A stretch of DNA of 64,000 nt from Clostridium sp. (GTDB taxonomy: Bacteria; Bacillota; Clostridia; Lachnospirales; Lachnospiraceae). Location of the stretch: assembly GCA_023664385.1 (NCBI GenBank), contig JAMPFU010000002.1, positions 1 to 64,000 of the forward strand, given 5' to 3'. The notes under the pieces are model-generated. The model was not told the DNA's origin, did no database searches, and saw only the letters and a list, made by a program, of their open reading frames with translations. Below, piece after piece: positions 1-49,562 of the stretch (position 1 is the first letter of the stretch; each line of letters opens with the position of its first letter). Made by a program: the position numbers and the translations under genes.

Positions 1-186
1 GCGATTTCAAAAAGTGAGTTGTGCAAAATGTATAATTCATACGCAAGGTGCTTTGGAGCCGTCGGTACTTAGCGAGGTATTTTCGAGCTTAGTACCGTTA
101 CGTGCGACAAGCAGCGCAAGCGTGCCATGCATTGAATTATACATTTTGAACAACGTATTATCTAAAAAACATAGTTTTGCAATTGC
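1..186 (-). repeat. Structured intergenic repeat, copy A (nested hairpin)
   Basis: Non-coding stretch downstream of flhB. Arms 18-40 and 132-154 are complementary at 21 of 23 positions and enclose a core with GGAGCCGTCGGTACTTAG (about 54-71) and GTACCGTTACGTGCGAC (about 92-108). An inner hairpin forms between GGTAC and GTACC, and a weaker outer stem pairs 1-12 with 175-186. The core recurs at 32316-32512 with completely different but again self-complementary arms. Orientation is assigned as minus because GGCACGCTTGCGCT, the motif shared with the copy at 49265-49413, reads on that strand. The left limit may lie outside the window. Whether it is a mobile element or a structured RNA is unknown. 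Confidence 0.75.
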
Positions 187-204
187 CTGTCATCCCCTTA
201 GGAC

Positions 205-32291: not shown

Positions 32292-32315
32292 GTCTTTGTC
32301 GAATTATGAATATAT

Positions 32316-32512
32316 GAGCAAAACGCATGATTTCAACAGCCTAGTTGTACAATATAGACAATATCACAAGCAAGGTATTGTGGAGCCGTCGGTACTTAGG
32401 TGACGTATTTTGTCGCCTTATGTACCGTTACGTGCGACACATAGCAAAAGCGTGCCCTGTTGTGATATGTCTATATTGTACAACGGATGTCTGCAAAAAC
32501 CGGGTTTTGCTC
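32316..32512 (-). repeat. Structured intergenic repeat, copy B (nested hairpin)
   Basis: Arms 32344-32369 and 32460-32484 pair over 25 bp with one bulged base, and an outer 9-bp stem pairs GAGCAAAAC (32316-32324) with GTTTTGCTC (32504-32512). The core shares GGAGCCGTCGGTACTTAG and GTACCGTTACGTGCGAC with copy A, while the arms differ completely from A. The element lies between divergent genes, so it is not a terminator for either of them. Orientation given for the strand reading CAGGGCACGCTT. Confidence 0.8.
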
Positions 32513-32559
32513 TTGGCTGTTTATCATTTTTAAGGAGGGCGGCTTAAGCCGTAAATAAC

Positions 32560-35500
32560 ATGAAACGATTAGGAATTGACATTGGCTCCACCACAGTAAA
32601 GGTAGCCGTGATAGACGAGGAACATACGATTCTGTTTTCAGAATACAAAAGACATTTTGCAAATATAAAGGAAACGCTCAAGGAGCTTGTTGATAATGCG
32701 TCAGCAAAGCTTGGAGCGATAAAGGTTGCACCTACAATCACAGGCTCAGGCGGTCTTGCCCTTGCCGAGGTTATCGGCATTCCCTTTGAGCAGGAGGTTA
32801 TATGCGTCTCCGAGGCACTTACGGACTATGCACCGCAAACTGACGTTGCAATAGAGCTTGGCGGCGAGGATGCAAAAATCATATATTTTACAAACGGTGT
32901 AGAACAGCGTATGAACGGTGTATGCGCAGGAGGTACAGGCTCATTTATCGACCAGATGGCGACTTTGCTTCAGACGGATGCGTCAGGACTAAATACATAT
33001 GCAAAGGATTACGATACCATATATCCCATTGCTGCAAGATGCGGCGTGTTTGCCAAAACCGATATTCAGCCGCTGATTAATGAGGGTGCCACAAAGCCAA
33101 ATCTTGCCGCCTCCATTTTTCAGGCTGTCGTAAATCAGACAATCAGTGGTCTTGCCTGTGGCAAGCCAATTAAGGGCAATGTTGCGTTTTTGGGAGGTCC
33201 CTTACACTTTCTTGACCAGCTTAAGGAGGCATTTATCAGAACCTTAAGCCTTACTGACGAGCATATTATCGCACCCGCCCACTCCCATCTTTTTGCGGCT
33301 GTAGGCGCTGCATTAAATGCGAAGGAGGAGGTAACCTATACCCTTTCTGACATAAGCGAGAAGCTTTCCGAGGATTTAAAAATTGCCGTTGATGTCGACA
33401 GGCTTGCCCCACTTTTTAAATCACAGAAGGATTATGATAATTTCATTGAAAAGCAGAGCAAATATAAGGTGACAAGAGGCGACCTTGCATCCTATAAGGG
33501 AAACTGCTATCTCGGTGTAGATGCAGGCTCAACCACAACAAAGGTTGCCCTCGTTGCCGAGGACGGTTCTCTGTTATACGATTTTTACAGCAGCAACAAC
33601 GGAAGCCCGTTAAAGACGACAATACGGGCACTGAAGGAAATATACTCCATTCTTCCTGAAGGGGTTACGATTGCGGCAGGCTGCTCCACAGGCTACGGAG
33701 AAGCCCTGATTAAGTCTGCCCTTATGTTAGAATATGGCGAGGTTGAAACAATCGCCCACTACACTGCCGCCGCCTTCTTTAACCCGGATGTCGACTGCAT
33801 CCTTGACATAGGCGGTCAGGACATGAAATGTATAAAAATAAAAAATGAGGTTGTGGACAATGTCATGCTGAATGAGGCATGCTCCTCAGGCTGTGGTTCC
33901 TTTATTGAAACCTTTGCAAAATCATTAAACTATGATATTAAGGACTTCGCAAAAATTGCGCTTTTTGCAGAAAGTCCCATTGACCTTGGCTCCAGATGTA
34001 CGGTTTTCATGAACTCAAAGGTAAAGCAGGCACAAAAGGAGGGTGCGTCCGTTGCAGACATTTCGGCAGGACTTGCCTACTCCGTTATTAAAAATGCGCT
34101 TCTAAAGGTTATCAAGCTTACAGACCCAAAGTCCTTGGGCGAAAATATCGTTGTTCAGGGTGGTACATTTTATAATGATGCCGTTCTTCGAAGCTTTGAG
34201 CTTATATCGGGACGTGAGGCAATCAGACCTGACATTGCAGGTATTATGGGTGCATTTGGTGCGGCACTGATTGCAAGGAACAACTATGAGGCAGGTCACG
34301 AGACAACAATGCTAAACAGGGAGCAGCTTGAAGCGCTTACCTATGAGACACGTATGTCACGCTGTAAGGGCTGTACAAACAACTGCCTGCTTACCATAAA
34401 CAAATTCTCAGGCGGCAGACAGTTTATATCAGGAAACAGATGTGAGCGTGGACTTGGACTTAAGAAAAATGCGAATCATGTTCCAAATTTATTTGAATAT
34501 AAATTTAACCGCTTGTTTGATTACGAGCCGCTTTCGGAGGGCGAGGCAGCAAGGGGCACAATCGGCGTACCAAGAGTGCTTAATATGTATGAAAACTATC
34601 CATTTTGGTTTACGTTTTTGACAAAGCTTGGATACAGGGTGCTTCTCTCCCCGAAATCCTCAAGGGATATTTATACCCTCGGCATTGAATCCATACCGAG
34701 CGAATCAGAGTGCTACCCTGCAAAAATATCACACGGACATGTTATGTGGCTTCTGAAGCAGGGAATTAAGACCATATTCTATCCTTGTATTCCCTACGAG
34801 CAAAATGAGGCTCCTGACGCAAACAACCACTACAACTGCCCGATTGTAACCTCCTATGCAGAAAATATTAAAAACAACATGGAGGAAATTTCTGCTCCTG
34901 ACATAACCTACATAAGACCTTTCCTTGCCCTTGACAACAAGGAGGCGTTAAAGGAGCGACTTCACAGAGAATTTAAAAAATATACAGACGTAACGCCTGA
35001 AGAAATATCGGAGGCTGTTGACGCCGCATATTTTGAGGACGCCAAGGTGAAGCATGACATACAGCAAAAGGGCGAGGAAACCATAAAATACCTCGTAGCA
35101 AATGATAAGCTTGGCATTGTCCTTGCAGGCAGGCCATATCACCTTGACCCTGAAATTAACCACGGACTGCCTGAGCTTATCAATTCCTTTGATATTGCCG
35201 TTCTTACAGAGGATTCCATTGCGCATCTTGCCGAGGTGGAGCGTCCGCTTATCGTTTCTGACCAATGGATGTACCACTCAAGGCTTTACAGGGCTGCAAA
35301 TTATGTAAAGAGAAGCCGTGTGCTTGAGCTGATACAGTTAAATTCCTTTGGCTGTGGTCTTGATGCAGTGACGACAGACTGCGTAAACGATATCCTGACA
35401 AATTCAGGCAAAATATATACTGTCCTTAAAATTGATGAGGTCAGCAATCTCGGTGCGGCAAGAATCAGAATCCGCTCACTCATAAGCGCCGTCAACGTAA

Positions 35501-36774
35501 GACGGAAGCGGCATTTTACGCCTTGTCCTGAGCCAAGCTCAATCAAGAGGGTTGAGTTTACTGAGGATATGAAGGATTACACGGTTTTAATCCCGCAGCT
35601 CTCTCCGATTCACTTTGATTTGCTGAAGCCTGCATTTAACAGCATGGGACTTAATATCGTCATGCTTCCTGACGCCACAAAGGAGGTTATCGACACAGGA
35701 CTGAAATATGTAAATAATGATGCATGTTACCCGTCCCTTATCGTTGTGGGACAGCTCATGCATGCCATAAATTCAGGACAATACGATTTGGACAAGCTCG
35801 CCGTCATTATGACGCAGACAGGCGGAGGCTGCCGTGCCACAAACTATGTAGGCTTCATAAGACGTGCCCTTGCAAAGGCAGGACACCCACAAATACCTGT
35901 TATCGCTTTATCCGTTCAGGGCATTGAAAAAAATTCGGGCTTTAAGTTTACGCCTAAGGTTGTCATCACTGCCATGCGGGCACTTATATTCGGTGATTTG
36001 TTCATGCGTGTTTTATATAAGACAAGACCTTATGAAAAGGTAAAAGGCTCTGCGAATAAGCTTCACAGAAAATGGAAAAAGGTATGCATCAAATGTCTGG
36101 AAAACAACGGACGAGGCTTTACCAAGGTTGTAAACGGCATTGTAGAGGATTTTGATAACCTCCCTCTCAATGAGGACGTTGTAAAGCCGAGGGTCGGTAT
36201 TGTAGGCGAGATACTTGTAAAGTTCCTTCCTTCCGCAAACAACCATCTTGTTGATTTGCTTGAGTCTGAGGGCGCTGAAGCTGTCATGCCTGATTTGCTT
36301 GACTTCTTCATGTACTGCTTCTACAACAACAATTATAAATATGAATTTTTAGGTAAGCCAAAGAAAACAGCCCGCAACTCAAATCTTGGAATTTGGGGGC
36401 TTGAAATGCTGAGAAAGCCTATGGTTAAGGCGCTTAAAAAGAGTAAACGGTTTGAACCGCCTGTACATATCTCCCACCTTGCGGAATATGCAAGACCGAT
36501 TGTTTCCATCGGCAATCAGACAGGCGAGGGCTGGTTTTTAACAGGCGAGATGGTTGAGCTTATCAAGAGCGGTGCCAGCAATATTGTATGCGCACAGCCA
36601 TTTGCCTGCCTGCCAAACCATATTGTCGGAAAGGGAGTTATCAAGGAGCTTCGAAAGGCTTACCCTGATGCAAACATCGTGCCAATCGACTACGACCCTG
36701 GTGCCTCCGAAGTAAACCAGGTAAACCGAATCAAGCTAATGCTTGCAACCGCAAGAAAGAACATGAACAGCTAA
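32560..36774 (+). CDS. 2-hydroxyacyl-CoA dehydratase activase-related protein
   Basis: A 1404-residue BadF/BadG/BcrA/BcrD-type protein. Two ASKHA ATPase domains follow one another ([14 protein letters not shown] near residue 4; [15 protein letters not shown] near 318), each with Cys motifs that may hold a shared Fe-S cluster (C122 in [10 protein letters not shown] and C161 in the first; ACSSGCGSF in the second). The remainder, from about 640, has DUF2229-like segments with conserved Cys ([21 protein letters not shown]). Small relatives power reduction of 2-hydroxyglutaryl-CoA dehydratase by ATP-driven electron transfer; the partner of this large form is unknown. It is the only plus-strand gene here. 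Ribosome site GGAGGG. Confidence 0.88.
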
Positions 36775-37612: not shown

Positions 37613-37646
37613 AAACGTAAAAAGAGCCACAGCTCTTTTTACGTTT
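37613..37646 (-). terminator. Terminator overlapping the scpB stop
   Basis: AAACGTAAAAAGAGC (37613-37627) pairs with GCTCTTTTTACGTTT (37632-37646) in a perfect 15-bp stem with a 4-nt loop. The A-run before and T-run inside make it usable in either direction, and the scpB stop codon lies within the stem. It separates scpB from the toxin-antitoxin transcript. Confidence 0.8.
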
Positions 37647-49230: not shown

Positions 49231-49264
49231 ATGCAAATTTCTCCTCGTTTTTAACAATATATGT

Positions 49265-49413
49265 AGGCAATTGCGAAACTAACATTTTATTAATATACGT
49301 TGTCGAAAATATACAACTTCAATTCAGGGCACGCTTACGCTTAACGCCCTGCTTATGAACTTGTATATTTTCTCCAACTTACGTTATTATAAAGCAGAGT
49401 TTCGCAATTACCT
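49265..49413 (+). repeat. Structured intergenic repeat, copy C (short form)
   Basis: Outer stem AGGCAATTGCGAAACT (49265-49280) with AGTTTCGCAATTACCT (49398-49413), 15 of 16 paired. Inner arms 49299-49324 and 49353-49378 enclose CAGGGCACGCTTACGCTTAA and CGCCCTGC. Read on the plus strand it aligns with the minus strand of copy A over about 75 nt, starting GGCAATTGC and continuing through ACGTTGT and GGCACGCTT, but it lacks the long inner core. Arms again differ from A and B yet pair with each other. Confidence 0.75.
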
Positions 49414-49434
49414 AAACAATATATGAAACAAAAA

Positions 49435-49562
49435 GCTGTCGCACTAAAGTTGTTTTGCGTATTTATAATAGAAAACCGTTACGTATCAACCGGAGCGAAA
49501 GCGATTTTTGATATAAATATACAAAATAACCTTAGTACGACAGCCCCTTTTTTATTTATTTT
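49435..49562. terminator. Long GCTGTCGCA-type hairpin after lepB
   Basis: Arms 49435-49465 and 49514-49544 pair over about 31 positions with a few wobbles or mismatches; the loop carries a smaller hairpin (GGAGCGAAAGCG region). On the minus strand GCGACAGC is followed by TTTTTG, and on the plus strand CGACAGCCCC is followed by TTTTTTATTT, so it can end transcripts in both directions. It follows the lepB stop directly. Related to 57363-57480. Confidence 0.75.

Follow-up and report, generated by a model that had tools for sequence, protein, structure and literature searches.

A family of mobile three-way-junction elements with site-specific self-paired arms in Lachnospiraceae, probably selected as RNA

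Introduction

Dispersed bacterial palindromes have mostly been viewed as DNA parasites. ERIC and NEMIS elements are MITE-like hairpins that are carried in mRNA, some of which are processed by RNase III, and we know of no conserved three-way-junction core or per-site arms in either of them. The SDR elements of Nostoc are small mobile repeats with a structure marked by compensatory changes, and are found nested in one another and in minitransposons; they measure 21–27 nt, belong to cyanobacteria and are not known to form a three-way junction.

Closer in description are the bcr1–bcr18 repeats of the Bacillus cereus group, which are intergenic, in some cases MITE-like, and located in UTRs and operon spacers (PMC3446304). 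Conserved RNA structures were predicted for bcr10 and bcr18, and longer half-lives were found for genes that share a transcript with bcr3, a correlation that the authors considered weak (PMC3446304). REPINs and the REP/RAYT elements are likewise short mobile intergenic palindromes, with REPINs combining conserved ends with a variable, hairpin-forming middle that shows compensatory changes (PMC3116915, PMC3733652). Finally, a single DNA event of template switching can create a perfect stem, change several paired bases together or invert a loop (PMC8794818), although this is a mutational mechanism and not an element.

The elements examined here resemble the bcr repeats in being intergenic, MITE-like and predicted to be structured as RNA, a likeness that is one of description. 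They differ in having site-specific self-paired arms, which are not known to be described for the bcr repeats (PMC3446304), and in that one fold spans 140 of the 334 genera sampled. Whereas the ends of REPINs are conserved and the middle is variable, the Lachnospiraceae element shows the reverse, and whereas the GTAG/CGTC tag of REP sequences is described as unpaired, the CGTC-like stretch found here lies in the paired stem of hairpin P2 and covaries (PMC3116915, PMC3733652). Moreover, the Y1 transposase family associated with REP/RAYT was not found in several genomes that have the most copies. The loop inversion known from template switching does fit the inverted core of one copy described below (L205; PMC8794818).

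Results

Three copies in the window

The window (the whole stretch of 64,000 nucleotides of Clostridium sp. DNA that was analysed) contains three copies of the element, referred to as A, B and C. The core of the element is a three-way junction of an outer stem (P1, formed by the arms), a bulged hairpin (P2) and a small hairpin (P3). The features are as follows, with cores delimited by a covariance model (R1) that was built from 25 copies.

1..189, plus strand: copy A, same MITE kind as B, left end truncated by the contig start
35..136, plus strand: core of A, R1 match of 108.5 bits
31869..32252, minus strand: LysM-domain gene, divergent, on the other side of B
32309..32519, plus strand: copy B, whole element, between divergent genes
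32309–32324, plus strand: left end repeat of B, degenerate
32343..32367, plus strand: left arm of B, 5′ side of P1
32362..32466, plus strand: core of B, R1 match of 87.3 bits (B itself being among the 25 sequences used to build R1)
32382..32399, plus strand: 5′ side of P2 in B, conserved, GGAGCCGTCGGTACTTAG
32422..32438, plus strand: 3′ side of P2 in B, conserved, GTACCGTTACGTGCGAC, in which TT is the two-nucleotide bulge
32444..32451, plus strand: small hairpin P3 of B, loop AAAA
32462..32484, plus strand: right arm of B, 3′ side of P1
32504–32519, plus strand: right end repeat of B, GTTTTGCTCTTGGCTG
32560..36774, plus strand: CoA enzyme activase (BcrAD_BadFG, DUF2229), downstream of B
49253..49263, no strand: left target-site duplication of C, AACAATATATG
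49264..49414, minus strand (core sense): copy C, MITE with both ends, core without P2 (loss judged by eye)
49415..49425, no strand: right target-site duplication of C, AACAATATATG

The two sequences that a sequence-only reading of this DNA had reported as shared by A and B are exact in both copies, with GGAGCCGTCGGTACTTAG at 55–72 (A) and 32382–32399 (B), and GTACCGTTACGTGCGAC at 92–108 (A) and 32422–32438 (B). Shuffled versions of the window yielded on average 0.01 and 0.03 matches, respectively, with up to 3 mismatches, and none of them contained two matches to either sequence even at 3 mismatches. The same reading had delimited B at 32316–32512, a span that is indeed closed by the outer stem GAGCAAAAC/GTTTTGCTC, but the end repeat continues to 32519. 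It had rightly placed B between divergent genes, namely the LysM gene and the CoA-enzyme activase, and the copy is oriented in sense upstream of the latter. Folding of B (32316–32516) gave −89 kcal/mol (z −9.9 versus dinucleotide shuffles), and folding of A (1–186, with the left end cut by the contig start) gave −66.5 kcal/mol (z −6.2).

The long arms of A and B had been described as unrelated to each other. Instead, their identity in alignment is 69% for the left and 59% for the right arms, compared with a median of 48% for shuffled arms of other copies, and the ends of A and B are related as well; the description does hold for copies at other sites and in other genomes. B is atypical for the family in its AAAA loop, its divergent neighbours and the lack of a recognisable target-site duplication. 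A weak R1 match at 49412–49517 (23 bits, E 0.0048), which overlaps the right end of C, is probably due to chance.

Element ends, target sites and insertion

Copies of the A, B and C types are bounded by terminal inverted repeats in the form of TAGGYAATTGCGAAAC or TAGNGATGAGCAAAAC pairs, and visual inspection of 27 loci from other genera revealed such end repeats in 6. Recognisable target-site duplications flank 4 of the 12 elements listed with both ends, these being exact for C (11 bp) and L239 (8 bp) and carrying one mismatch for L025 (12 bp) and L035 (10 bp), while the remaining eight had no duplication by the rule of the script. At B, where none is recognisable, the bases up to 32315 at the left end are also present in the element-free allele. 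In a related genome (locus L051), in which the activase is 98% identical, the element is missing from the site that B occupies here, indicating that B is an insertion or that its absence from L051 is a deletion. The cleanest gain was observed at a site that is filled in G019 (L270) and empty in G024, G015 and G023 (L296, L299 and L300), and neither arm is present in the nearest empty allele (L296). A model in which one arm derives from the flank is thus unsupported at this gain. Locus L203, at the second L007 site, retains part of one arm only and is ambiguous. The suggestion of a stem-tolerant mobile element, made from the sequence, is consistent with the end repeats, the 11-bp duplication at C and the absence of B from L051.

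This genome has 39 occurrences of one exact end motif. An exact search of seven genomes with one of the two end types revealed no parent transposase among the matches listed; the one long inward-facing end pair noticed there (contig C15 of G001) encloses genes that by eye are ABC-transporter-like. The IS200-like Y1 transposase family (PF01797) was detected in 8 of 37 genomes, only as fragments in G035 (47 R1 matches), and was not found in the copy-rich genomes G000 (28 R1 matches), G036 (61), G034 (52) and G026 (52). Mobilisation by a REP/RAYT system is disfavoured by the lack of a Y1 family match in several copy-rich genomes. The window copies are MITEs by structural definition, save for a known parent. 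The sequence-only reading had proposed that target-site duplications together with an adjacent transposase relative would make the element an ordinary MITE; such duplications do exist, but no parent transposase was found in the exact search of seven genomes. Several of the loci L254–L262 in G036 sit by eye inside different outer repeats (e.g., like GGGGCTGTCGCACTAAG), suggesting that more than one MITE-like type carries the core.

Core fold and covariation

Outermost in the element are the P1 arms. Inside them follows an internal loop, in which ATAA faces GNT, and then a short helix that is conserved and leads to the junction with P2 and P3. P2 contains a YU bulge of two nucleotides, and its tip varies. 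Of 157 distinct copies, 152 have a GNRA loop in P3, and seven of the eight possible GNRA sequences are represented among them; B is one of the five exceptions (a looser pattern gave 158 of 306 but admits false copies, so that the former count is preferred). In two sets of copies, 97.9% and 97.2% of the cells were paired and two-sided changes occurred at 18 and 17 of the 20 core pairs, although both alignments were fitted to the model and so lean towards it, and the copies were treated as unrelated. None of 500 shuffles and no slid version matched the observed core pairing, and an alignment made before the model revealed two-sided changes at 13 of the 20 pairs. The P2 stems display almost only double changes and very few G.U intermediates, a pattern that is less in line with stepwise selection on RNA than with exchange of cassettes or template switching.

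In agreement with the earlier statement that no described family was recognised, Rfam 15 gave no match to the window (at gathering thresholds), to the B region (E up to 5) or to six loci (E up to 1). No hammerhead, twister, pistol or HDV motif was spotted by eye.

Spread across genomes

A pattern search with an 18-base core motif (up to 2 mismatches) returned 14 occurrences in this genome and found the motif in 19 of 61 genomes, with the reversed pattern giving at most one match per strand and genome. The R1 model has 28 matches in this genome, and it matched all 37 genus genomes searched, with 1 to 61 matches per genome (108 candidates scored in each). A covariance-model search of Lachnospiraceae, which had been proposed as a check of the original observation, yielded matches in 159 of 397 genomes, which represent 140 of the 334 genera sampled; with ten candidates scored per genome, copy numbers in this family sample are lower bounds. 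The idea that the copies might be confined to this genome, named at that time as grounds for rejection, is contradicted by this spread of copies with covariation. In a phylum sample, 5 of 398 genomes had matches with E up to 1e-5, these being four Lachnospiraceae and G812, a genome of another family that has nine R1 matches, the eight displayed having arms that differ from each other and yet pair. Neither this wide spread nor the conservation of the ends nor the duplications flanking C had been noted earlier. Among the top-ranked titles and abstracts in the literature outside most subscription journals and bioRxiv preprints, none describes the element family; a set of 3161 intergenic candidate RNAs has been published (PMC8040213).

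Pairing and mismatches in the outer arms

Arms were examined in 162 distinct copies with enough flank, obtained from 177 model hits (86 + 91). The median arm score was 20.3, compared with 3.0 when the left arm was set against the right arm of a random copy, which extends to the whole family the earlier observation that the long arms pair with themselves. The arms had a median of 29 aligned columns, 84% of which were Watson-Crick. The 155 copies with an arm score of at least 10 were reduced to 93 families by dropping those that matched a kept copy at 19 or more of 26 left-arm positions.

Read on the core-sense strand, these 93 families contained 102 G.T and 41 A.C mismatches (p 3.5e-7), besides 2537 Watson-Crick pairs, 167 other mismatches and 177 gaps. 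The excess persisted for mismatches flanked by Watson-Crick pairs (71 G.T and 23 A.C). Since pairing maintained at the DNA level in a strand-blind manner would make G.T and A.C equally common, the observed excess of G.T departs from that expectation. Sense copies had 59 G.T versus 18 A.C and antisense copies 21 versus 19 (Fisher p 0.012), with the small context classes giving G.T:A.C ratios of 8:2, 4:2, 6:0 and 3:0. A mutational bias linked to transcription should be reversed in antisense copies, and no such reversal was seen; the 27 antisense copies among the 93 instead lacked asymmetry, as inert passengers would. It is possible that strand-specific single-stranded DNA would also yield an excess of G.T. 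The composition of the pairs themselves was not significantly asymmetric (G-C 451 versus C-G 401, p 0.09; U-A 857 versus A-U 828, p 0.50).

Changes between orthologous arms were counted in 15 hand-picked comparisons. One-sided changes involved G.T 12 times, A.C once and another mismatch once; because L269 enters two of the comparisons, two of these G.T changes appear twice in the count. Double changes were Watson-Crick in 18 cases and of another kind in 4, and 320 pairs were unchanged. Orthologous arms were thus altered via G.U or paired changes, suggesting change in place as would be expected of an RNA stem. The earlier proposal of selection on a fold accords with these substitution patterns, namely the core covariation, the arm pairing and the G.T bias.

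A TATAAT-like box just before the left arm was present in 50 of the 93 families versus 44.0 expected from shuffles, and no conserved outer boundary of the arms was found across them. Many copies of the G019 group read, by eye, ACA-GGTTG...CAACC-GTA.

Arms and cores in paralogues and orthologues

Among 14 paralogues in G019 (91 pairs), median identity was 85% for the core and 57% for the arms, shuffled arms giving 48%. A search of G019 for further occurrences of these arms, in which 40 of 72 candidates were scored, found none below E 0.1 for 13 of the 14 copies (L273, the fifteenth, was left out). Of 17 hand-picked comparisons between orthologous sites, 10 had an identity of 92% or more in both arms, some of the conserved arms surrounding a core of another class, as in the argC leader (arms 100/96%, core 54%). 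The notion of a conserved core with exchanged arms hence holds for paralogues but not for these orthologous sites. Some of the copy sites are conserved across species.

In L205 the arms are those of L007 and L204, but the core between them has the opposite orientation; the core of L206 is also inverted, but between mostly different arms. The core is missing and a palindrome is left in L284, and perhaps in L206 at the first L007 site, the coreless hairpins having the same arms as their counterparts (L206 vs L207; L284 vs L276). At gpmI, L271 and L298 share the same unusual core within different paired arms (flanks 99% and 97% identical in BLAST pieces, 82% and 95% end to end). In G408, the cores of L243–L246 are identical as displayed and that of L247 has one difference, while the arms are different and each paired. 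Since three species have the core at panD, the coreless allele of G024 reads as a loss. Arms may have become site-specific because the insertions are old, with drift that kept the pairing and conversion of the cores, or because the arms arose during insertion. In the leuB spacer, L310 (G008) has a tandem array of GATTTGTTACCTGTTTAGG units in place of the hairpin of G019.

Position relative to host genes

The 93 copies comprised 47 sense-tandem, 27 antisense-tandem, 6 convergent and 4 divergent copies, with 5 inside an ORF and 4 unclassed; a stricter count of 63 copies gave 32, 18, 3 and 3, with 7 inside an ORF. Co-directional neighbours flanked 74 of the 84 classed intergenic copies versus 159 of 288 in the background, a comparison that is indicative only since the background derives from mechanical ORFs. 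With start codons and neighbours called mechanically, the distance from the end of a sense core to a start codon with a Shine-Dalgarno-like motif had a median of 52 nt (found for 44 of 47 copies, 25 of these 44 at 38–54 nt), compared with 85 nt from antisense copies to the first such start in the direction of the host gene (found for 23 of 27; p 0.004). When the right arm is added to the core, the hairpin of a sense copy is expected to stop immediately upstream of the ribosome-binding site. Six directly downstream genes could be named with family models (argJ, argC, leuB, ilvD (partial), phosphoglycerate mutase (partial) and panD), and these span several pathways.

Discussion

The elements are dispersed, present or absent at orthologous sites, covarying in their fold and strand-specific in the mismatches that their arms tolerate. 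A, B and C probably represent a large and hitherto undescribed family of structured mobile elements, here carried on MITEs, in which selection acts on the RNA form; the substitution patterns and the position of the copies suggest an RNA function.

An origin as selfish palindromic MITEs would account for arm pairing at the DNA level, either through template switching in quasi-palindromes or because single-stranded DNA hairpins serve as transposition substrate, and would need no RNA function. The end repeats, the target-site duplications at 4 of the 12 elements listed, the coreless hairpins (as hairpin-mediated deletion would leave), the nearly exclusive double changes in P2 and the inverted core of L205 all agree with it, and template switching has been published as making or maintaining stems and inverting loops (PMC8794818). 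However, template switching should mend G.T and A.C alike, whereas G.T exceeds A.C, clearly so in sense copies, and the pair asymmetry that has been linked to strand-biased switching (PMC8794818) was not significant here. Correction of the stem would also erase the conserved bulge, the internal loops and the GNRA loop, and end repeats were seen by eye in only 6 of the 27 loci of other genera, so that we regard a purely selfish origin as quite unlikely. It is unlikely, too, that the core alone is mobile and acquires its arms per site, by entering pre-existing palindromes or by making an inverted copy of a flank upon insertion. Such mobility would explain why the G019 paralogues have like cores and unlike arms, 13 of 14 without a second genomic place, why near-identical cores sit in different paired arms in G408 and the same core in different arms at gpmI, and why coreless palindromes with the same arms exist (L206 vs L207; L284 vs L276). 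On the other hand, the nearest empty allele (L296) to the cleanest gain (L270) has neither arm, the coreless panD allele of G024 reads as a loss, and ready-made targets look rare, given that the window contains only two short-loop palindromes of at least 16 bp. Entry of the core into ready-made palindromes is thus disfavoured by one clean gain and by the scarcity of such palindromes in the window; the two that it has, at 37613 and 39118, are terminator-like.

A conventional cis-regulatory RNA, i.e. a leader sensing a ligand or protein that has spread by descent and gene conversion with mobility being incidental, would match the position before start codons, the GNRA hairpin, the conserved junction and the retention of some sites across species. 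The diversity of pathways among the six named downstream genes, the tens of matches per genome in many species, in both orientations, and the presence or absence at orthologous sites nevertheless make this very improbable.

Under the favoured reading, in which the mobile element is selected as RNA, the transcript would form a three-way junction with a long outer stem particular to each site, P2 and the GNRA hairpin P3. As the copies lie mostly between co-directional genes and the sense ones end near a start codon, they should ride in leaders and operon spacers, and sense copies would be transcribed within these parts of the mRNA. A cellular factor may read the junction, and the element would help, or at least do no harm to, the downstream message. 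After insertion the arms would stay with their site and be altered through G.U and paired changes, and cores may be replaced by cores from other copies. As to a role, we tentatively propose a barrier that might protect or separate the downstream cistron from 5′-to-3′ decay or from upstream structure, a possibility prompted by the position, the fold and the published weak correlation of bcr3 with half-life (PMC3446304). Somewhat more doubtful is a family-wide three-way-junction unit that is selected in host mRNAs and has its own self-paired stem at each site. Should that be true, many transcripts would begin, or be spaced, with an individually coded double-stranded handle, and the common core would be read by some factor.

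The strand- and orientation-dependent mismatch patterns suggest that a mobile element is kept as part of mRNAs in many Lachnospiraceae, and this putative, undescribed mobile RNA structure may act on the messages of neighbouring genes. As one core recurs in as many as 61 copies per genome, with stems particular to each site, the family constitutes a natural experiment on how long RNA stems originate and are maintained, and in particular on whether they evolve stepwise through G.U or by template switching. The copies also bear on how leader structures might set the expression of single cistrons within operons, and the fold is suitable for submission to Rfam, which would allow annotation of the genomes that carry it.

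Nested and composite copies

A second hairpin of ca. 40 nt, GTCCTGAGG...CCTGAGGAC with variants, was observed in or near P2 of several copies, such that L227, L233, L234, L236, L237, L239 and L049 represent a repeated hairpin inside a repeated hairpin. In addition, cores at L036, L038, L039 and L040 of this genome (contigs C11, C12 and C28) adjoin inverted core fragments in complex arrangements.
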